Part shown: positions 1 through 9,337 of the stretch, one piece after another | Numbering within the stretch: position 1 is the first letter of the stretch | Layout: the number at the start of each line of letters is the position of its first letter | Source of the DNA: a virus | Reading direction: 5' to 3' (one strand) | IMG/VR virus record: IMGVR_UViG_3300014050_000178 | Span: 1 to 20,360 of that record | DNA: 20,360 nt | Position numbers and translations under genes: made by a program | Notes under the pieces: generated by a model | The model's input: the letters and a program-made list of their open reading frames with translations, nothing else | Told to the model about the DNA's origin: nothing | Databases searched by the model: none

Positions 1-2429
1 GCACCAGTTCCAGCAGTTGCAATATTAACAGTTCCTGTTGTTATTCCCGCACCAATTGCAATTGTTCCTGTAGTTACATCTGACCAAAGTGAAGGAGTTG
101 CTGCTGCACCTGTAGTTGTAGAAATTGAATTAATAAGTGGTGTTGTAATTGTTGGTGAAGTTGCATAAACTGGAGATCCAGTTCCTGTTGCTAATGTCCA
201 TACAGGAGCCGTTGCAGCACTTGCTGTTGTTACAGATGTTAATCCATAAGTTCCGTTAGTGGCTGGACCTACAATCCTTGCTGGAGCACCAGATGCGCCA
301 CCAGAAACCATATCTCCAAGAGTAGTCATTGGATTTGTAAATGGCGATGTCCAAACATATCCATTAGCAGTTCCATTGACTGCAAGCATTTGTCCAGCAG
401 TTCCAATTGAAACATAACCAGTTGTTGCAGATGCTGATTGATAAGGAATTGAATAAACAGTTGTGCCTGAAAGATTTGTTGCAGTAGTTGCAGTTGATGC
501 AGATGAAACAGAAAGACCTGAAATGTTTGTCCAAGTAGGTGCACCAGATGCATTACCAATTAACACCTGAGTATTTGTTCCTGCTGCTGTAGATGCATAA
601 GCAGTTGTTGATGTTGCATAAATTACGCCATACTGTGTGGGCGCTGTTCCTGTTCCTGTTCCTCCCTTTGAAATTGCAAGGGTAGTAATAGCAGGTTCAT
701 AAGCACTAGATGCTGTAAATGCAGCAGATCCTAATGTTCCTCCTGCACCAATATTTAATGTTGATCCATCAGTTCCTGCAAGAACTATGTCATTATTAAT
801 TTGTACATACTTTGCAGTTGTTCCACCAGATAATCTAAAACCTGTAGCATTGATTGTAGGTGTAAGTCCAAGTACAACTGTAGAAGAAAGAACTGAAGTA
901 TTATTTATTTTAAAAGTTTTAGCACTTGCAATATTCCAGTTTTCTGATGAAGTCCAGTTTGCATTTGTAGAATCCCAAACAATAGTTTTATCTGTTGCTC
1001 CTTTGAGGGTAATTCCACCACCATTTGCTGTAGCATCTGTTGCTGCCTGACCAAGTATATTTGTAACATTTCCTGCTGTAAAAGTAAGGGTAGATGAAAC
1101 AGTAATAGATGTAGCACTTGCAATAGTAACTACGCTCATTACTCCTGAACCAAAACTACCAGTTCCTGCTGTAGCAGTAATAACTTGTCCTGGAATTAAT
1201 CCAGCAGTTGAAGTCATTGCAGTAATTGTTGCTGTAAATGGACCTGCTCCAGATACCGTTCCAATAGTGCCAGTTGTGCTTATTGTTCCTGCTGCAACTG
1301 ATCCTAATTCAATATTTTTATCATCAACAACAAGAGTATTTGTATTTAAAGTATTTGTAGTGCCGTTTACAGTTAAATCTCCATTAATGGTAGTTGTTCC
1401 ATTAAGAGAAATTGTGCTTGTAGCCCCAGATAAAGATCCAATAGCAATCGCTGTGGTTCCAGCAGTTGATGCAGTTCCAATATTGATAGTTTTATTAACT
1501 GTGCCTGCTCCAGTGGCAATTGCGACGGTACCATTAAATGCTGAACCTGTTGCAATATTTACTCCACCAGTTGTTAAAGAACCACCCATAGAAATAGAAC
1601 CAGTTGTAATTGTGGTATTCCACAATGCTCCTGAAGTTCCTAATGCTGAAATATTAATTGTATCAATTACTGGAGTTGTAATTGTTGGAGATGTTGAAAG
1701 AACTACGTTTGCAGAACCTGTACTTCCAATCCAATCAGGAGCAACGGAAGCAGATGCTGTAACATTCTCACGAAGAAAATAAATGCCATTTGTTGCGTTG
1801 CCAGCAAGACGTGTAGGTGCACCTGATGCTCCACCATAAAGAATATCTCCAAGTGTTGTTAATGGATTTGCAACTAAGGTTCCAGTTGCTGAAGGTAATG
1901 TGTATGTAGCACCATTAGTTCCAGAAATCGTATATGCTGCTCCACCTGCAAAAGTAACTGCTACTGCAGTTGTTCCACCAGAAACTCTAAATCCAGTTGC
2001 ATTTGAAGTAAGAGATAAAGCATTAAAAGTTGATGCAGTTAAAGCACCAGTAAATGCTCCTGCGCCAGCAACATCAAGTGCTACTGTAGGAACAGACTTT
2101 AAAATTCCAACATTACCAGATGCATCAATAACAAATGGTGTTGAATCAGTACTGGCTGAATCTTCAACTAAAAATGAATTTCCAGTTCCAGTATTTGTAA
2201 TTCTTAATGGAACTCCAGTTCCTGCCTGATTGATAATAATTCCATCATCAGTTCCAGTAATTGTATAAGTATTTGTTTTGGTTAATATATTGGCAATATT
2301 TTTATCAACCTTTAAACCTAAAACAATTTCAAGTCTATCTGACAACGCTTTTATATCGCCATGCACATTTACTGGATCAGTAGATAGTGGATATGGTATT
2401 AAATATACGGAGGTTGCGCCTGAAGCCAT
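1..2429 (-). CDS. Large modular tail fibre protein, C-terminus cut off by the window edge
   Basis: The minus-strand frame is open from an ATG at 2429 to the left edge, giving 809 complete codons and no stop. The composition (Gly, Thr, Ala, Ser, Val, Asn) and repeats are typical of phage tail fibres. Motifs visible are GDLTVNGTT followed by VDDKNIELG at about residues 348-378, two NATGFR(V/L)SGGTTA blocks, and an AISKGGTGTGTAPTQYGVIY block, all recurrent in fibres of marine and freshwater phages. A unit of roughly 110-160 residues beginning NP(L/M)TTLGD and containing TSPTITTP occurs at about residues 186-345 and again from about 697 to the edge. Role by family: distal fibre for receptor contact. 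No Shine-Dalgarno precedes the start; an extended -10 lies 9 bases upstream, so the mRNA is probably leaderless. It diverges from the lysozyme gene. The true length is unknown. Confidence 0.9.
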   Translation of the reverse strand, partial: MASGATSVYLIPYPLSTDPVNVHGDIKALSDRLEIVLGLKVDKNIANILTKTNTYTITGTDDGIIINQAGTGVPLRITNTGTGNSFLVEDSASTDSTPFVIDASGNVGILKSVPTVALDVAGAGAFTGALTASTFNALSLTSNATGFRVSGGTTAVAVTFAGGAAYTISGTNGATYTLPSATGTLVANPLTTLGDILYGGASGAPTRLAGNATNGIYFLRENVTASASVAPDWIGSTGSANVVLSTSPTITTPVIDTINISALGTSGALWNTTITTGSISMGGSLTTGGVNIATGSAFNGTVAIATGAGTVNKTINIGTASTAGTTAIAIGSLSGATSTISLNGTTTINGDLTVNGTTNTLNTNTLVVDDKNIELGSVAAGTISTTGTIGTVSGAGPFTATITAMTSTAGLIPGQVITATAGTGSFGSGVMSVVTIASATSITVSSTLTFTAGNVTNILGQAATDATANGGGITLKGATDKTIVWDSTNANWTSSENWNIASAKTFKINNTSVLSSTVVLGLTPTINATGFRLSGGTTAKYVQINNDIVLAGTDGSTLNIGAGGTLGSAAFTASSAYEPAITTLAISKGGTGTGTAPTQYGVIYATSTTAYASTAAGTNTQVLIGNASGAPTWTNISGLSVSSASTATTATNLSGTTVYSIPYQSASATTGYVSIGTAGQMLAVNGTANGYVWTSPFTNPMTTLGDMVSGGASGAPARIVGPATNGTYGLTSVTTASAATAPVWTLATGTGSPVYATSPTITTPLINSISTTTGAAATPSLWSDVTTGTIAIGAGITTGTVNIATAGTG

Positions 2430-2438
2430 AGTGTTTTA

Positions 2439-2522: not shown

Positions 2523-2557
2523 AGAGTTATACACCTAAACGGGTGTTATTGTTTTCT

Positions 2558-2564
2558 AAGGAGG
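2558..2564 (+). promoter_or_regulatory. Strong ribosome binding site that decides the lysozyme start
   Basis: AAGGAGG ends 5 bases before the ATG at 2570. This favours that ATG over the in-frame GTG at 2543, which has no ribosome binding site and would place nine polar residues ahead of the signal peptide. Confidence 0.85.
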
Positions 2565-2569
2565 AAACT

Positions 2570-3151
2570 ATGAAAAATGATCAAAAATTTCTAATAGGGG
2601 TACTCGCATTCGTGCTTGGTTTTACAGGAGTTGTTGGAACAGTCAATGCTAACGCTTTGTCTACTGAAAATAACCTGAGTACTAAAACGGCTGCTACATC
2701 AACAACCGCTAAGGCGGTTTTTTTGGTTTCTAAGCCAAAAGGTTTGGTTCAAGTAAAAAAAGACTTAAATATTTTAGTAAAATATCAAAATTCTGCAAAA
2801 CTGACAGATAAAGAATTAAAAGATCTTCTTTCTGCTGTTGGTTTTAAAGGCAACCATCTTGTTGAGGCTTGGGCTATAGCCAAAAAAGAAACTAATGGAA
2901 ACCCACTGGGATTTAATGGAAATGTTAAAACAGGAGATGCTTCTTTTGGTTTATTTCAAATTAATATGCTTAAAGATATGGGACCAGAGCGTAGGGCTAA
3001 GTTTGGTCTTAACTATAATGCAGATCTTTTAAATCCCGTTTTAAATGCTCAGGTAGCCTATTGGATGAGCAGTGGTGGAACAAATTGGTCTTCATGGCAT
3101 GGAATAAGTTCAAGAACAAAAGCATGGATGAAAAAGTTTCCAGTTAATTAG
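2570..3151 (+). CDS. Secreted lysozyme / lytic transglycosylase-like protein, probable endolysin
   Basis: A 193-residue protein and the only clear plus-strand gene. Residues 7-29 form a hydrophobic segment ending in ANA, a typical Sec signal peptide or signal-anchor. A Thr/Ala/Ser linker follows to about residue 50, and a lysozyme-fold domain covers about 78-193. Hallmarks of the SLT/lysozyme superfamily are the helix AIAKKETNGNP with probable catalytic Glu107, TGDASFGLFQIN (121-132), and an AYWMSSGGTNWSSW-type block near the end. By family it cleaves the peptidoglycan glycan strand. The export signal suggests Sec-dependent (SAR-like) lysis without needing a holin for release, but a virion-associated lysozyme is also possible. 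It has its own promoter and strong ribosome binding site, and a terminator-like hairpin lies inside the coding sequence. Its stop overlaps the convergent oxygenase stop by 3 bases. Confidence 0.85.
   Translation: MKNDQKFLIGVLAFVLGFTGVVGTVNANALSTENNLSTKTAATSTTAKAVFLVSKPKGLVQVKKDLNILVKYQNSAKLTDKELKDLLSAVGFKGNHLVEAWAIAKKETNGNPLGFNGNVKTGDASFGLFQINMLKDMGPERRAKFGLNYNADLLNPVLNAQVAYWMSSGGTNWSSWHGISSRTKAWMKKFPVN
2704..2724 (+). terminator. Intrinsic-terminator-like hairpin inside the lysozyme coding sequence
   Basis: AACCGC (2704-2709), loop TAAG, GCGGTT (2714-2719) forms a perfect 6-bp GC-rich stem, and seven T run from 2718 to 2724. It lies at about codons 45-52, roughly 175 bases after the predicted transcription start. 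A second dyad, TTTTGG (2721-2726) with CCAAAA (2735-2740), overlaps the T run. Confidence 0.55.
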
Positions 3152-3663
3152 CAATACCACTGAACAATACAATAACGTGTTCCATCTATAACTGGATGGA
3201 CAATATGGTTATATGTGTATGCTGAAGGGAATATTAAAAGATCTCCTGCCTTTGGTTTTATATTAATTCCAAATCTAGGAAATTCAATATTTCCTCCAGT
3301 ATACCCATCATTAATGTAATATATTAATGAAATCCTACGTCTATTTAGTTCTGGATGATCATCAATATGATTATTAAATTTTTGCCCTGATCCATATCTT
3401 AAAAGAATGGGAACTTCTTTTGTTAAAAATATTGTGTTATATTTTTTTAAATATTTATCTAAATAAGGATTTAAATTATTTTCAAAATCTTTTAAGTAAT
3501 TTAATAAATTAAAATTATTTAATAATATGCTATCTGTATTTCTGCCATTTTCATTGTTTGGTCTTTCTAGACCCCAATCACGTTCTTTTATATTATCAAT
3601 ATAATTTTTAGGAAATATATTAATATCATTAAATAATTCAATTCCTTGGGTTAATTCCAACAA
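3148..3663 (-). CDS. 2-oxoglutarate/Fe(II) dioxygenase, prolyl 4-hydroxylase type
   Basis: A 171-residue protein with the double-stranded beta-helix iron and 2-oxoglutarate signature. The metal ligands are H99 and D101 in NNHIDDH and probably H153 in the block HIVHPVIDGTRY, and R163 should bind the 2-oxoglutarate carboxylate. The stretch GGNIEFP followed by PKAGDLLIFPS is typical of the P4H/PKHD branch. Family chemistry is hydroxylation of a protein or small-molecule substrate coupled to decarboxylation of 2-oxoglutarate; the substrate is not evident. The start is TTG at 3663 or the adjacent TTG at 3660. No ATG is available and the upstream gene ends 2 bases before. This is the last gene of the leftward island. 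Confidence 0.85.
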   Translation of the reverse strand: MLELTQGIELFNDINIFPKNYIDNIKERDWGLERPNNENGRNTDSILLNNFNLLNYLKDFENNLNPYLDKYLKKYNTIFLTKEVPILLRYGSGQKFNNHIDDHPELNRRRISLIYYINDGYTGGNIEFPRFGINIKPKAGDLLIFPSAYTYNHIVHPVIDGTRYCIVQWYC

Positions 3664-3664
3664 T

Positions 3665-4246
3665 TTAATCTATCCAATTTTTAATGTTTAAATTTATATT
3701 AATTACCCCACGAAGTCTTGTGTTTTCTGGTGGAGTTATTGCATGAAAGTGTCTTCCGTCCAAAAGAAAAGCAGAACCTCTTTTTGGTGTTATTCTTTCC
3801 ATTATTTCTCCTGGGGTATCTATTTGTGATCCAGTCAATCTTTGCTTATATAGAACTGTATCTCCATCACTGTCATTTACATAGTACAAAAATACCCAAT
3901 GTGGTATTGATGCATCAACATGAGGAAATAGCGTTGTTGCATTTTTTATTGAAGGTGTAAGATTGAATTTAATTCTAGAAATTGAATCAAAACTAATATT
4001 ATGCTTATTACAAAAAATATTAACAATTTTTTTTGCAATTATTGATTCTTTTCTTTCTTCATTTTCATTTACTGTAAATGTAAAATACGATATATCTTTT
4101 GCTCCAGTATTTATAATTCCTGGATGATCTAAACCATTATTATGAATAATATTTAAATAAGCCCAAGGGATTCCTGTTGACCAGTACATCTCATCTACTT
4201 CACAAATTTCTTCTTCAGTTAAAAATTTGTCATCATATATAAACAT
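3665..4246 (-). CDS. 2-oxoglutarate/Fe(II) oxygenase, divergent type
   Basis: A 193-residue protein. The iron-binding pattern is H109-V-D111 in FPHVDASIPHW, with a distal His (H168 in DGRHFHAITPPENTRLRG) and R177 or R179 as the 2-oxoglutarate anchor. ITPKRGSAFLLDG matches the beta strand before the distal His. It lacks the GG(N/D)I.FP block shared by the three P4H-like enzymes in this island, so it comes from a different branch and may act on a different substrate. AAAGGA precedes the ATG with good spacing. It lies 1 base after the sulfotransferase gene 4248-4838 and 1 base before the next oxygenase, so the three are surely co-transcribed. Confidence 0.8.
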   Translation of the reverse strand: MFIYDDKFLTEEEICEVDEMYWSTGIPWAYLNIIHNNGLDHPGIINTGAKDISYFTFTVNENEERKESIIAKKIVNIFCNKHNISFDSISRIKFNLTPSIKNATTLFPHVDASIPHWVFLYYVNDSDGDTVLYKQRLTGSQIDTPGEIMERITPKRGSAFLLDGRHFHAITPPENTRLRGVININLNIKNWID

Positions 4247-4247
4247 A

Positions 4248-4838
4248 TTAAATTTCCTTTATTATTTCTTCATACATGGCATATGCTTCATTTAGTATAT
4301 CATTATTTTTTATATATTCCCAAATTTTTATATATTCTGGATCTTGATTTGCGCCTCTTGGAAAATGTCCAGTATATAGGTCATGTCTATCATCTGCAAA
4401 TTTTTTCTGTTTAATTACATCTAAAACATTATCAATATTTAAATTAAATTCTGATGAAAAATTGTATTTATTTAAAAATTTAATAATTTCTTCTTTAGGA
4501 TTTTTTATTAATTTATCAAAATTAATTAAATAAGATTTTTTTAATTTAGACATTTCTAAAAAATATAAATAATTTTTACACTCTGATTTAATTATAATGT
4601 CTAATTCGTTAATATTTTCAGGTAATTTACCTACTAATAGCCACTTAAAAATATCTGAAGTTATACATTCTTTTGGATTCCTAATAATTGTTATAGTTAT
4701 TACTTCATCAATTCCAATTATTTGTGGCAAATGCACAACAGTAGTTTCATATTGCATTGTCCTCATAGAGTTTATTAATTCTGCAAGAAAGACAGATCCA
4801 GACCTAGGATAAGAATTTATTAATATTGGTTTTGTCAT
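4248..4838 (-). CDS. Sulfotransferase (PAPS-dependent)
   Basis: A 196-residue protein. SYPRSGSVFLAELIN (residues 9-23) is the 5'-phosphosulfate-binding loop of the sulfotransferase superfamily, and TIIRNPKECITSD (50-62, R53 and S61) is the 3'-phosphate-binding motif. A C-terminal segment RGANQDPEYIKIWEY fits the C-terminal part of the fold. By family it transfers a sulfo group from PAPS to a hydroxyl or amine. It is shorter than cellular carbohydrate sulfotransferases (about 250-300 residues) and of a different branch from the tandem HIPKTGG pair at 7548-9075. It is sandwiched between an oxygenase and the DUF6065-like gene with 1-base gaps. No Shine-Dalgarno is obvious, so translational coupling is likely. 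Confidence 0.85.
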   Translation of the reverse strand: MTKPILINSYPRSGSVFLAELINSMRTMQYETTVVHLPQIIGIDEVITITIIRNPKECITSDIFKWLLVGKLPENINELDIIIKSECKNYLYFLEMSKLKKSYLINFDKLIKNPKEEIIKFLNKYNFSSEFNLNIDNVLDVIKQKKFADDRHDLYTGHFPRGANQDPEYIKIWEYIKNNDILNEAYAMYEEIIKEI

Positions 4839-4839
4839 A

Positions 4840-5565
4840 TTATTTAAATATTTTTCTTACCCAATAATTTAACATGTAGTATCCTGTTTTTGATCTAAAT
4901 CTTTTTCCATCTTCTATTAATTTTTGTTGTGATTCTTCATGAGGCAATACAACTATTTCACTTTCCCAGTTTTCTCTTTTAAATGGAATTACTTGAATTA
5001 ATGGAGTACCCTTTTTAATAATACCTGAAAAATTTTTATTTATAAAAATAGGAATTGCTCCAGGTGTAAATATTTTATCATTTTCAATAACTCCACTAGT
5101 GATAACAAAGGGTAGTTCAAATCTATTTAAAGGGGTTACATACAGTGCGCTATACCCTTCTGGAAGGCTTACCCCCCATTGAGGAACGAGAGCAATATGA
5201 TCTTTATAAAATCCATCTGGAACATTAAAGCCTTTCATCTCTGGACGAAATTGAAAAATAGAGTTAAAGTCATGATCTATTTCAATTTCAACCTCATCTC
5301 CATTTTTTTGCACTATTATATCAACTGGACTTAATATAAAATATCCTAAAGACATTGAATCTAAAAAGGATATACAACCTTTAAATGTTGGGCTTTTACC
5401 ATCTTCATTATGTGCCCTAACACCATGTGATGAAAATTTTTTAGCCTTTAAATACCAATCTGGCAAAGATAAAATTGATGCTATTGGATTAATTAAATCT
5501 TTATCAGATTTTCTTTGAAAAGCATAAAACTTAATTAAATTAAATTTATTGATATTCTTCACCAA
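4840..5565 (-). CDS. DUF6065-like protein of unknown function
   Basis: A 241-residue protein. Several blocks look like the family I know as DUF6065: SLGYFILSPVDI (about 72-83), QWGVSLPEGYSALYVTPLNR (about 128-147), and GTPLIQVIPFKRENW near residue 190. I recall such proteins from phages and cyanobacteria, without a known activity. The alternation of short beta segments suggests a beta-rich fold, which is inference. The start is uncertain: TTG at 5565 or GTG at 5562, with only a weak AGGA upstream, and no ATG is near. It overlaps the preceding gene by about 20 bases. Sitting within the oxygenase/sulfotransferase operon, it may be an accessory or substrate-recognition factor. Confidence 0.7.
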   Translation of the reverse strand: MVKNINKFNLIKFYAFQRKSDKDLINPIASILSLPDWYLKAKKFSSHGVRAHNEDGKSPTFKGCISFLDSMSLGYFILSPVDIIVQKNGDEVEIEIDHDFNSIFQFRPEMKGFNVPDGFYKDHIALVPQWGVSLPEGYSALYVTPLNRFELPFVITSGVIENDKIFTPGAIPIFINKNFSGIIKKGTPLIQVIPFKRENWESEIVVLPHEESQQKLIEDGKRFRSKTGYYMLNYWVRKIFK

Positions 5566-5917
5566 AAAGGTCCTGTGGGTATGTATAACTTACAGAATTT
5601 TTATATCTATTTAATTCTGGAATTTTTTTTTCAACTTCTAAAATAACATTTTCAAAAGTTTCAAAATTTAAAGATTGACCTAAATTAATCATTTTATTTT
5701 TAACATTATTATAAAAACTTGTTGCAGTTATTTCATCAAAATAAATATTATAAAAATAAATATCTATATCTACCATCTGCATATCAGGGTTAGATCTAAA
5801 AACTGCAATTTCAAATTTATTATTTATTAATTTAAGACAAGATAATCTTAGCCAAAAAGACTGTCCAAATGGGATTGAATCTTTTAATTCCCAATACTTT
5901 ATTGAATCATCATGCAT
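5546..5917 (-). CDS. Hypothetical protein of the oxygenase/sulfotransferase island
   Basis: A 123-residue protein that I do not recognise. It has no signal peptide or membrane segment and no obvious catalytic motif. The N-terminal half is beta-like and aromatic-rich (QSFWLRLSCLKLI, then VDIDIYFYNIYFDEI), and the C-terminal half looks helical (about 65-100). GGAG with an 8-base gap precedes the ATG. Its end overlaps the DUF6065-like gene by about 20 bases, which suggests coupled translation and possibly a joint role. It follows the oxygenase gene after 22 bases. Confidence 0.7.
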   Translation of the reverse strand: MHDDSIKYWELKDSIPFGQSFWLRLSCLKLINNKFEIAVFRSNPDMQMVDIDIYFYNIYFDEITATSFYNNVKNKMINLGQSLNFETFENVILEVEKKIPELNRYKNSVSYTYPQDLFGEEYQ

Positions 5918-5939
5918 AATGTTTTCTCCATTTTTATAA

Positions 5940-6557
5940 TTATTGTTCTAAATTATCTTTATGTGCTTCAAACTCTGTCCAAAAACTAGATATTGTATAT
6001 CTAGTTCCATTTAATACTCTATTAACTCCATGTAGGTGATGAACATCCCCTGGGAAAAATGCAAGCATTTTTGGTTTAATGGGAATTGAAACTCCATGTT
6101 GTGGGAAATGAATATCTCCACCATCAAATTCATCATTTAAATATAAAACACAGCCAACTTGCCTCCAATTATAAACATGTGGCTGACCACCTAAATTTTC
6201 AAAATCTGAATGTACTGGCTGTACATATCCATGAGGCCACTTAATTAAATTTAAACTATCAGCATATATTGGTTTTTGTAAATTATATTCTTGAATAATT
6301 TTATTTTTTATTCTTTTTCTAATATCAATTAACATATTTAAAATTTCAAGGTCGTAGTCTGTTCCAAATCCTTTATGAACTAAGTTTAAACTAAAAGCAC
6401 CTAAAAATCTATTAGACCATTGGCCATATGGATCTCCATCTTTTCCACCAATATCCCACAAACTATTATTTGTTAAATATTTTTGATATTCAACTAATTT
6501 ATTATTTTCATCTTCTGAAATAAAATTGTGAACAACTTTAATATCTTCTATTGCCAT
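5940..6557 (-). CDS. 2-oxoglutarate/Fe(II) dioxygenase, prolyl 4-hydroxylase type
   Basis: A 205-residue protein. VQPVHSDFEN gives H116 and D118; HHLHGVNRVLNGTRY gives distal H176 and R186. GGDIHFP followed by PIKPKMLAFFPGDVHH is the typical P4H/PKHD core. It is the closest visible relative of the oxygenase encoded immediately upstream (6558-7124). Both end in an I(S/T)SFWT block after the Arg, so the pair probably arose by duplication. The ATG directly abuts the TAA of that gene. Family activity is hydroxylation of protein side chains or small molecules; the target is unknown. The start fits the relative, which begins near the equivalent point. Confidence 0.85.
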   Translation of the reverse strand: MAIEDIKVVHNFISEDENNKLVEYQKYLTNNSLWDIGGKDGDPYGQWSNRFLGAFSLNLVHKGFGTDYDLEILNMLIDIRKRIKNKIIQEYNLQKPIYADSLNLIKWPHGYVQPVHSDFENLGGQPHVYNWRQVGCVLYLNDEFDGGDIHFPQHGVSIPIKPKMLAFFPGDVHHLHGVNRVLNGTRYTISSFWTEFEAHKDNLEQ

Positions 6558-7124
6558 TTAATTTGTCCAATCTAATAAATGTTGTGCATAACCATATTCT
6601 TTCTGATATGTCCAAAAAGAAGTTATAGCGTAACGAACTCCACTAAAAATTTCTGTAACTCCATGCATATATTCAAAAGAAGATGGAAACATTATAAGCA
6701 TACCAGGTTTTGGAACTATTGTCAAATTTTGATTTGGAAAAAATAAATTTCCACCCTTAAAATTATTATTTAAATAAAGTACAGAAGAAAAATTTCTATA
6801 AGATGTTCCATTATCTTCACCATTATTTCCTGTAGAATCTGAGTGTGGGTTTCCAGTTTGTCCAGATTGTGTTCTACAAAATTGAAATAATTCAGGATAT
6901 ATTTCTTTATTTAAATTAAAATTATTTTTTATATTTTGTTTTATATCTTTACTAATATTGTTGATTTCATTTAAAACATTATTGTTGTTAATATTATTTG
7001 GATTTATGCATCTTTCATTCCATAGTAGATTATTTGGAATTTTTTGCCAACTATCTGTATTTATTAAATAATTATTAAACAGATTGATGTTTGTTTTTGA
7101 TAAAAAATTTTCAATTATTTTAAT
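6558..7124 (-). CDS. 2-oxoglutarate/Fe(II) dioxygenase with apparent ATT start codon
   Basis: A complete 188-residue oxygenase frame ending in TAA at 6558. It carries H94-S-D96 (GNPHSDSTG), GGNLFFP, a PKPGMLIMFPSS strand, distal H154 and R164 (YMHGVTEIFSGVRY), and ITSFWT. In frame there is no ATG, GTG or TTG before the catalytic HxD; the first TTG is codon 134. ATT at 7124-7122 lies 9 bases after AAGGAG, and starting there gives IKIIENFL, which aligns with IKVVHNFI at residues 6-13 of the downstream paralogue. I therefore place the start at 7124. Alternatives are a CTG at codon 15 or frameshift fusion to the upstream gene, whose end overlaps by 10 bases. The gene is easily missed by automatic callers. 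Conserved catalytic residues argue that it is functional. Confidence 0.75.
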   Translation of the reverse strand: MKIIENFLSKTNINLFNNYLINTDSWQKIPNNLLWNERCINPNNINNNNVLNEINNISKDIKQNIKNNFNLNKEIYPELFQFCRTQSGQTGNPHSDSTGNNGEDNGTSYRNFSSVLYLNNNFKGGNLFFPNQNLTIVPKPGMLIMFPSSFEYMHGVTEIFSGVRYAITSFWTYQKEYGYAQHLLDWTN

Positions 7125-7561
7125 TTTATTTTGCTCCTTGTAACACTTTTTTCTAATTCTTCATCATCATAAAAATTATTTTCAACTTCTTCAAGACTTA
7201 TATCTGGATTATTTTTAAAAACAGATATAACATAATTTTGACTATCTGATCCATCATTAAGCCAAGTTTGTCTTAATAAAACGTTTCCTTCTTTATCAAT
7301 ATAAGCAAAATGATACCAATTATATTTTTCATCTTCTGTTTTTAATTCTATGTTTTTATTTCTTTTTATATAGTTTGGAATCAACAATCCACTTTTTTTG
7401 TCCCAATAATCCCCAGTTTTTGCTTCAAAAACAAAATGATTAACATCTACAATATCAGAGTTTTGTTTGTAAACTTCATAAGATATGCTTTTTTTATCAA
7501 TAAAAGGAATTTTAAAAACAACCTCTTTATCAATTAAAAATACTGCATTATAAGTTTTCAT
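7115..7561 (-). CDS. Hypothetical protein of the oxygenase/sulfotransferase island
   Basis: A 148-residue protein that I do not recognise. It is soluble and mixed alpha/beta, with many charged and aromatic residues. Blocks such as KTGDYWDKKSGLLIP and YNWYHFAYIDKEGNVLLRQ look like beta strands, and an acidic helix follows (SLEEVENNFYDDEEL, about 121-135). AAAGGA precedes the ATG. Its start overlaps the tandem sulfotransferase by 14 bases, and its end overlaps the ATT-start oxygenase by 10 bases and contains that gene's ribosome binding site. A partner or substrate of these enzymes is possible by position only. Confidence 0.7.
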   Translation of the reverse strand: MKTYNAVFLIDKEVVFKIPFIDKKSISYEVYKQNSDIVDVNHFVFEAKTGDYWDKKSGLLIPNYIKRNKNIELKTEDEKYNWYHFAYIDKEGNVLLRQTWLNDGSDSQNYVISVFKNNPDISLEEVENNFYDDEELEKSVTRSKIKLK

Positions 7562-8303
7562 TTTTTTCCTTTACATAGTTATATATTTTAAAATCTAAAT
7601 CATTATTATTTATTATAGCATTCATATCCTTTTTTGTCAATAATGATTTTAAATATTTAGTTGTATAAATATTATTTAAATTTGACTCTAATATTTTTGC
7701 ATTTGTTTTTTTAACAAAATTAATATTATAATTATTAATAAACCATTGTTCTATTTGATTATTAAAATAATTAAAGTTATCAAGAGTTCCTACTATGTCA
7801 AAAGAATTTATTTGTTTTTTAGCAAATTCAAAACTAGTATTTGTATTTTGTAGACACCAATTTTTTGACCATTCTTCATAATTAATATTTTTTTCAAATA
7901 CAATATTGTTTGACTGATTACAAATAAATCTTGTCTGTATATTATTATGTTCAAAATAAAAATCATCTTCAAATAAATAATATTTTAATTTATCTACCAT
8001 TTCTGAATAATTTAAATATTTTTTATTATATTTTAATAATTTTTCATATATCCAAAGAAAATTACTAATTGATCTATCTATAGGATTTCTCACCATACAG
8101 GCTATTGAAAGATTATTTATTTTATCAATTGGATAGGTTCCTATATGTGCTTGAATATAGTTATATTTTGATAAATTTTTATCATATGGTGTTTTTGAAT
8201 TTAATAACATATTAAGATTGTTTATTCCAATATTTGAAACAACATTTGTCATAATTGAGGTACCACCAGTTTTTGGAATATGTAAAAAATATAAACTATT
8301 CAT
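7548..8303 (-). CDS. Sulfotransferase, HIPKTGG type, tandem copy B
   Basis: A 251-residue protein. LHIPKTGGTSI (7-17) is the PAPS 5'-phosphosulfate loop, with K11, T15 and S16. ACMVRNPIDRSISNF (68-82) is the 3'-phosphate motif with R72 and S78. A conserved KLKYYLFEDDFYF block follows. The length is usual for the sulfotransferase branch related to heparan sulfate and carbohydrate enzymes. It is a clear paralogue of the gene just upstream (8296-9075), with shared motifs in the same order; the two overlap by 8 bases. Unlike copy A it keeps the canonical TS after PKTGG. By family it sulfates a hydroxyl or amine of a glycan or protein; the acceptor is not evident. Confidence 0.85.
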   Translation of the reverse strand: MNSLYFLHIPKTGGTSIMTNVVSNIGINNLNMLLNSKTPYDKNLSKYNYIQAHIGTYPIDKINNLSIACMVRNPIDRSISNFLWIYEKLLKYNKKYLNYSEMVDKLKYYLFEDDFYFEHNNIQTRFICNQSNNIVFEKNINYEEWSKNWCLQNTNTSFEFAKKQINSFDIVGTLDNFNYFNNQIEQWFINNYNINFVKKTNAKILESNLNNIYTTKYLKSLLTKKDMNAIINNNDLDFKIYNYVKEKNENL

Positions 8304-9075
8304 TTTTAGATTTTATATAATTGTAAAGAAAAAGATCAAATGAATTATTGTCTAAAATTTGTTGTTTTTCTATTTCTGTAAGTGAATTAATTAATGACTC
8401 CGTTGTATATTCATTTAAATCTTTATCTATTATTTTAGATGGAATATTTTCAAATTCTCTATCACTAAAACTAACATCTAGATTATTCATAAACCATTGT
8501 TTTATTTTATTATAAAATATATCGTGTCTTTCTATTGTTTCAACTATTTCAAAAGAATCAATTAAATTTATTATATCTTCTAATGTATATTCTTCATCAT
8601 TTAAATACCAGATGTTATTATTTTTTTCAATAATATTTACATTTTCTTTTTTAAATAAATTTTGAAATGCTTCATCTTTCATATTGTTAAAAATTGATCT
8701 ACATTGAAGATTATTAACTGCCGAATAGTATGGATCTTCAAATAAATAATATTTTAATTTATCTTCAATTTTTTCTATTGTTTTGTATATTTCATTATCT
8801 TGAATATTTTGTATTGCATTATTATAGGAGTGAATAAAATTGCTAACAGATCTATCAATAGGATTTCTTACCATACAGGCTACTGAAATATTTTCATTTT
8901 TTGTTATTGGTGTTTTACCAAAATGACCAATTATAAAGTTTGATGAATTAAATTCTTCAATAGTAGAATCTGTAGATCCGATAAAAGGATTTAAATTAGA
9001 ATTGCCTTTAATTTTTGCTAATATATTCATACCTCCAGTTTTTGGAATATGTAAAAAATATAATTTTTTTGTCAT
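8296..9075 (-). CDS. Sulfotransferase, HIPKTGG type, tandem copy A with altered PAPS loop
   Basis: A 259-residue paralogue of the downstream gene. LHIPKTGGMNI (9-19) corresponds to the PAPS loop, but the usual Thr-Ser after PKTGG is Met-Asn (M16, N17). VACMVRNPIDRSVSNF (65-80; R70, S76) is intact, as is KLKYYLFEDPYY. The Thr/Ser at this position normally contacts the phosphosulfate, so this copy may bind PAPS less well, have a shifted role, or act in a heteromer. It starts 1 base after the zinc-ribbon gene and overlaps copy B by 8 bases. Both copies keep an (A/G)H(I/F)G motif (H51 here), which often lies near the acceptor site in this branch. Confidence 0.85.
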   Translation of the reverse strand: MTKKLYFLHIPKTGGMNILAKIKGNSNLNPFIGSTDSTIEEFNSSNFIIGHFGKTPITKNENISVACMVRNPIDRSVSNFIHSYNNAIQNIQDNEIYKTIEKIEDKLKYYLFEDPYYSAVNNLQCRSIFNNMKDEAFQNLFKKENVNIIEKNNNIWYLNDEEYTLEDIINLIDSFEIVETIERHDIFYNKIKQWFMNNLDVSFSDREFENIPSKIIDKDLNEYTTESLINSLTEIEKQQILDNNSFDLFLYNYIKSKNE

Positions 9076-9076
9076 T

Positions 9077-9319
9077 TTACCACTTTCCTAATGGACAAGA
9101 CGATTTTTGTAATTTTGTTTTAATTTTCATAAAACAACCACATTGTTTGCAGATTTTGGTTTCATGAATAAATTCTAAACAAGACAAGCAAGATAAATAT
9201 CGTTCTTTATGTGTTTCTTTGTCTACTTTATTTTTTGTAGAATCTAAAATATCCCAGGGTCTTGTACCATCTTTTTCAAATAAATTATTTTTTATATTTT
9301 TCCAAATATTATCTGACAT
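9077..9319 (-). CDS. Small zinc-ribbon protein heading the island
   Basis: An 80-residue protein with six Cys: C44-x2-C47, C57-x2-C60-x-C62 and C75. The C-terminal half, KICKQCGCFMKIKTK then SSCPLGKW, resembles a small zinc-ribbon family that I have seen in marine phages, without a known function. AAGGAG lies 5 bases before the ATG, and an extended -10 (TGATATACT) sits a further 8 bases upstream, so this is the probable first gene of the leftward oxygenase/sulfotransferase operon. The next gene starts 1 base after its stop. A regulator or nucleic-acid or protein-binding adaptor is possible but not shown. Confidence 0.8.
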   Translation of the reverse strand: MSDNIWKNIKNNLFEKDGTRPWDILDSTKNKVDKETHKERYLSCLSCLEFIHETKICKQCGCFMKIKTKLQKSSCPLGKW

Positions 9320-9337
9320 AATTGCTCCTTTTTAAAA

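Follow-up and report, generated by a model that had tools for sequence, protein, structure and literature searches.

Translation from AUU or AUA is known in bacteria. According to works cited in PMC2268962 and PMC13009471, infC and pcnB are two E. coli genes with an AUU start. In Staphylococcus aureus, AUU is the start codon of cvfC1, and AUA is that of ccpN, infC and citZ (PMC13009471). Natural AUU and AUA starts with an extended Shine-Dalgarno (SD) sequence work in S. aureus at about 10% of the AUG level (PMC13009471), and ATT in E. coli initiates at about 0.3% of ATG (Hecht 2017, as cited in PMC10666635). Here we describe a phage gene for a 2OG-Fe(II) oxygenase that has no usable canonical start and carries an ATT at a well-placed SD. 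The window is the whole of the 20,360 bases analysed from IMG/VR virus record IMGVR_UViG_3300014050_000178, one metagenome-assembled contig, and the features discussed are collected in Table 1.

Table 1. Features at the oxygenase locus of the window
Feature	Position	Strand	Remarks
2OG-Fe(II) oxygenase (prolyl-4-hydroxylase-like), 188 codons from ATT	6558..7124	-	frame open to 7160
Proposed start ATT	7122..7124	-	9 nt 3' of AAGGAG; sequence, spacing scan
AAGGAG, SD-like hexamer	7134..7139	-	within 3' end of upstream gene P0002
ATA, rival start	7116..7118	-	overlaps P0002 TAA as ATAA, the geometry of the ortholog ATGA
P0002, upstream gene, 148 aa, function unassigned	7115..7561	-	stop TAA 7115-7117
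Paralogous 2OG-Fe(II) oxygenase, downstream, 205 aa, ATG	5940..6557	-	adjoins orthologs too
123-aa gene, function unassigned	5546..5917	-	also within ortholog module
phrog_7084 gene, TTG/GTG start	4840..5562 (or 5565)	-	also within ortholog module

The minus-strand frame is open from 7160, with a TGA at 7163-7161 just before it, down to the stop at 6558-6560. Read from the ATT, the 188-residue protein has the N-terminus IKIIENFLSKTN. The product is a predicted 2OG-Fe(II) oxygenase with a prolyl-hydroxylase fold. It matches the PF13640 profile with 48.8 bits against a curated cut-off of 27 (E 1.4e-12) and also matches PHROG 61, 2OG-Fe(II) oxygenase. Residues H94, D96 and H154 of the HxD...H iron triad and the 2OG-binding R164 are invariant among the aligned relatives. 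The AlphaFold model (mean pLDDT 93.3, pTM 0.90) has a double-stranded beta-helix fold, and its first strand comprises residues 2-4, numbering from the ATT. The top PDB matches found with Foldseek are prolyl hydroxylases, the first being chlorella virus vCPH (5c5t, E 1.2e-8).

The first in-frame ATG, GTG or TTG is TTG 6725, which is codon 134 from the ATT and lies past the HxD motif (H94/D96), so that an active enzyme is impossible from any canonical start. The frame scan bears out what the earlier note had claimed, an intact 188-residue oxygenase without a canonical start before its active site. The sole in-frame CTG is codon 15. The hexamer AAGGAG, which the same note had placed 9 bases ahead of ATT 7124, is indeed there, with 9 nt between its 3' end and the ATT. 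Over the cassette minus strand 3148-9320, an SD match of at least 6 nt at a spacing of 3-13 nt occurs at 0.36% of positions, and the AAGGAG before the ATT is tied with the SD of the 9077-9319 gene as the best of the cassette. The gene had also been described as fitting exactly between its neighbours; it abuts the downstream gene at 6557, but when read from the ATT it overlaps P0002 by 10 nt. Similarly, the alignment of its N-terminus with the downstream paralogue holds for the segment IKVV, but the paralogue starts five residues (MAIED) earlier. Another ATT, upstream at 7157, was rejected as a start, since no SD precedes it and the protein would gain about ten residues that orthologs do not have.

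Orthologs were collected by scanning viral-contig proteins with the pair P0001 and L014 and with the downstream oxygenase. They were found in nine contigs (about six distinct sequences), each beside the same second oxygenase: L014/L096 (55% identical), L097/L098, L099 and L100/L101 (43-46%), and L103 and L104 (45%). In this module an oxygenase of 188-194 aa is followed, as in the window, by one of 205-206 aa, which is orthologous and 58-70% identical in every locus inspected. A 122-133 aa gene is also shared with the window, and phrog_7084 is present in several copies. The difference lies at the 5' side. All nine copies start with ATG, which overlaps the upstream stop as ATGA, and the gene before it, a 68-aa gene in L014 and a large tail-associated gene in the others, is unrelated to that of the window, which has no ATG. 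ATT is found in none of the nine and therefore is not a conserved regulatory start; the infC-type autoregulated expression suggested in the earlier note finds no support.

The position of the ortholog ATG relative to the window ATT varies with gap placement. With one gap, the ATT stands opposite the ATG, while in a gap-free alignment it stands opposite ortholog codon 2. Anchored on the common ATAATTGAA, the ATG of L099 (GTT ATG ATA ATT GAA) is opposite AAA 7121-7119, one codon past the ATT. The homologue comparison at this codon, proposed in the earlier note, thus gives ATG in every copy, level with the ATT or no more than one codon away from it. The ATT would lie no further than one codon from where the orthologs start, in an ambiguous register, unless ATAA is the true register. 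As judged from these comparisons, the canonical start of the window oxygenase is gone under every alignment considered. Among 80 homologues surveyed, an ATG stands where the start is expected in nearly all and none requires ATT or ATA, and near-cognate starts as a habit of the family were rejected. The exceptions are L050 and L084, which look like TTG starts, and L042, where the frame is broken. In L050, at about 1390-1501, the homologous frame seems to start (TTG) directly after an apparent tRNA gene, and its start may coincide with the tRNA 3' end.

Because ATG is present in all orthologs, a consensus error or a minority variant in the metagenome assembly has to be considered, with the phage population carrying ATG at or beside this codon. 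One to two substitutions would be enough, and the window is a single contig for which no close relative was found. Viral-contig protein scans with the oxygenase gave no relative above 56% identity and those with P0002 gave only L008, although the records nearest the window may be left out of both. Neither protein had matches among annotated phages, no relatives were found in bacterial genome contigs, and a scan of viral contigs for the pattern SD-ATT-KIIENF gave no match. On the other hand, two adjacent substitutions are required if the ATG is the codon aligned to that of L099 (7121-7119), and no further broken gene is seen in the window, so there is no sign of poor consensus quality. Substitution errors are rare in assembled consensus, and we regard this explanation as quite unlikely. 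The weights behind this and the other four readings of the locus are our judgement and were not computed.

The upstream gene content changes where the start is missing. P0002 is 73% identical to its counterpart in L008, its sole relative found in the viral-contig scans. L008 shares with the window a block consisting of the P0002 homologue, two sulfotransferase-like genes and a small cysteine-rich gene; after the P0002 homologue it has a different oxygenase, of 204 aa and with an ATG start. The downstream paralogue of the window is 70% identical to its L014 counterpart. Since P0002 comes from another module, in which a different oxygenase follows, a module junction can be placed at the oxygenase start, and the window probably represents an L008-like upstream block joined there to an L014-like downstream block. 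No parental sequences were near enough to place the breakpoint of this join.

We tentatively favour, at somewhat less than an even chance, a functional accessory oxygenase gene that has lost its ancestral ATG and is weakly translated from AUU 7124 via the SD. That ATG, which was coupled to an upstream stop in an ATGA overlap, would have been lost in the window lineage where a different upstream module joined. The AAGGAG in the end of P0002 could then set the initiator tRNA on the AUU, 9 nt away, and weak translation of the oxygenase would now start there. The unbroken 188-codon frame with every catalytic residue present is consistent with such use, and we infer that ribosomes initiate at the AUU and that the enzyme is produced. 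The S. aureus starts with an extended SD are a precedent for it. Against it stand the ATG in every ortholog, with ATT conserved in no sequence found, and the low rate of ATT initiation in E. coli. The SD-ATT arrangement on which the earlier note based its proposal is real, but the start is not conserved, and ATT initiation is plausible and unproven.

The same start loss may instead have left a recent null allele, the ATG having been removed by mutation or by module joining and the gene being silent, or nearly so, and too young for decay. This agrees with the ATG in all orthologs, with the coincidence of the module junction and the oxygenase start, and with the weakness of near-cognate starts. 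Such accessory cassettes turn over fast, and a dispensable oxygenase with a paralogue directly downstream could go without cost. However, its frame and catalytic residues are unbroken, and an SD at usable spacing is improbable by chance. Under random mutation, with one indel assumed per ten substitutions, the median number of neutral mutations that breaks the frame is about 5 (0.9% per site), and in 95% of cases it is broken by about 21 (3.7% per site), so decay should show once neutral divergence reaches roughly 1-4%. As the frame is lost this fast under drift, a long-silent gene would look otherwise; what remains is a gene still in use or one whose start disappeared only a short while ago. 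We also counted changes on the window branch and on the L014 branch, judged against the other orthologs, with three neighbouring genes for comparison. Window-only to L014-only changes are 20:11 in the oxygenase and 47:46 in the three neighbours. Relaxed selection on the oxygenase cannot be demonstrated from this count, the difference not being significant (Fisher p 0.21), and the slight surplus of window-only changes leans, non-significantly, towards relaxed constraint and a null allele. Overall, we consider a silent gene unlikely, though a serious competitor to AUU initiation.

A third possibility, overlooked in the earlier note, is termination-reinitiation at AUA 7118. At this codon the stop of P0002 would share ATAA with the start, and no other site here has the 4-nt overlap geometry of the orthologs. 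One G-to-A change turns ATGA, present in 9/9 ortholog copies, into ATAA and leaves the upstream protein unaltered; ATAATT differs from the ATGATT of L014, the nearest ortholog, by one change. Among coupled gene arrangements the -4 overlap is the most frequent (PMC10666635), and AUA starts exist in S. aureus, as in infC, ccpN and citZ (PMC13009471). This register, however, requires that, compared with L014, 9 nt were deleted after codon 2, and the AAGGAG is 15 nt off, beyond the ordinary SD range. The ATT start keeps the N-terminal strand of the model, whereas an ATA start at residue 3 would clip it, since the strand is formed by residues 2-4. AUA is likewise a weak start, and we give re-initiation a slim chance. 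Relative to P0002 the oxygenase is also in the -1 frame, and an A6 run is present at GAAAAAAG, as might be expected if a programmed -1 frameshift fused the two proteins. However, there is no classical slippery heptamer in the correct phase and no notable structure (z -0.78). The L008 homologue of P0002 is a separate gene that ends within a few residues of the same point. Homologues fused in frame to the upstream protein, which the earlier note had named as evidence against an ATT start, did not turn up among the ortholog copies found. With no suitable slippery site, strong structure or fused ortholog, fusion was rejected as very improbable.

The oxygenase belongs to a cassette at 3148-9319 (to 9320) beside tail genes, which contains three PF13640 oxygenases and three sulfotransferase-like genes and is flanked by a tail-fibre-type gene and a lysin-like gene. 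At 20-29% GC it is far richer in AT than the greater part of the window. The mixture of genes differs among the related cassettes of L007, L008, L014, L097 and L103, and this difference suggests that accessory modules are shuffled behind tail genes. Three of the 11 cassette genes, the 6558-7124 oxygenase included, have no near ATG. The phrog_7084 gene (4840-5565) has a TTG/GTG start inside the previous gene and ATG in L097, L099 and L101, and the last oxygenase of the cassette, at 3148-3663 on the minus strand, starts TTG TTG directly after the previous stop. At the left end of the window, an 811-codon open frame (1-2435, minus strand) runs past the end; it is repetitive and Thr/Ala/Gly-rich and looks like another tail-fibre gene. 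The plus-strand gene 2543-3151 is transglycosylase/lysin-like with an N-terminal signal-like segment. Its sole phage matches are Streptomyces phages, e.g. WheeHeim, Forthebois and RickRoss (39-46% identity), and these matches hint at an actinobacterial host.

If the ATT start is true, this is a phage auxiliary gene with near-cognate initiation, and gene callers limited to ATG, GTG and TTG drop or truncate intact enzymes. If the start loss is true, the locus shows an accessory gene just as it is being inactivated at a module junction. Under either reading the reach stays local, with a single accessory oxygenase of a single uncultivated phage concerned. It is a long shot that AT-rich phage cassettes form a wider class, in which recombination or mutation at 4-nt overlaps would erode ATG, AUU or AUA with an SD in the upstream gene would keep the genes in attenuated form, and callers restricted to ATG, GTG and TTG would miss them.

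As an enzyme, the window oxygenase shares PF13640, the HxD...H motif with the Arg, and the double-stranded beta-helix with PBCV-1 vCPH (PDB 5c5t) and Bacillus P4H (PDB 3itq, 5hv0). Its identity to solved prolyl-4-hydroxylase-type enzymes is only about 20%, and it differs from known prolyl-4-hydroxylases in its non-canonical start codon. The natural AUU and AUA genes, infC and pcnB of E. coli and cvfC1, ccpN, infC and citZ of S. aureus, combine a near-cognate start with an SD, as here, the SD of the S. aureus starts being extended. Relatives share the starts of cvfC1 and ccpN, and both have been mapped by experiment (PMC13009471), whereas the window ATT is read from the sequence of one contig only. 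To the ATT-started genes already known (infC, pcnB and cvfC1), the window oxygenase would add one.
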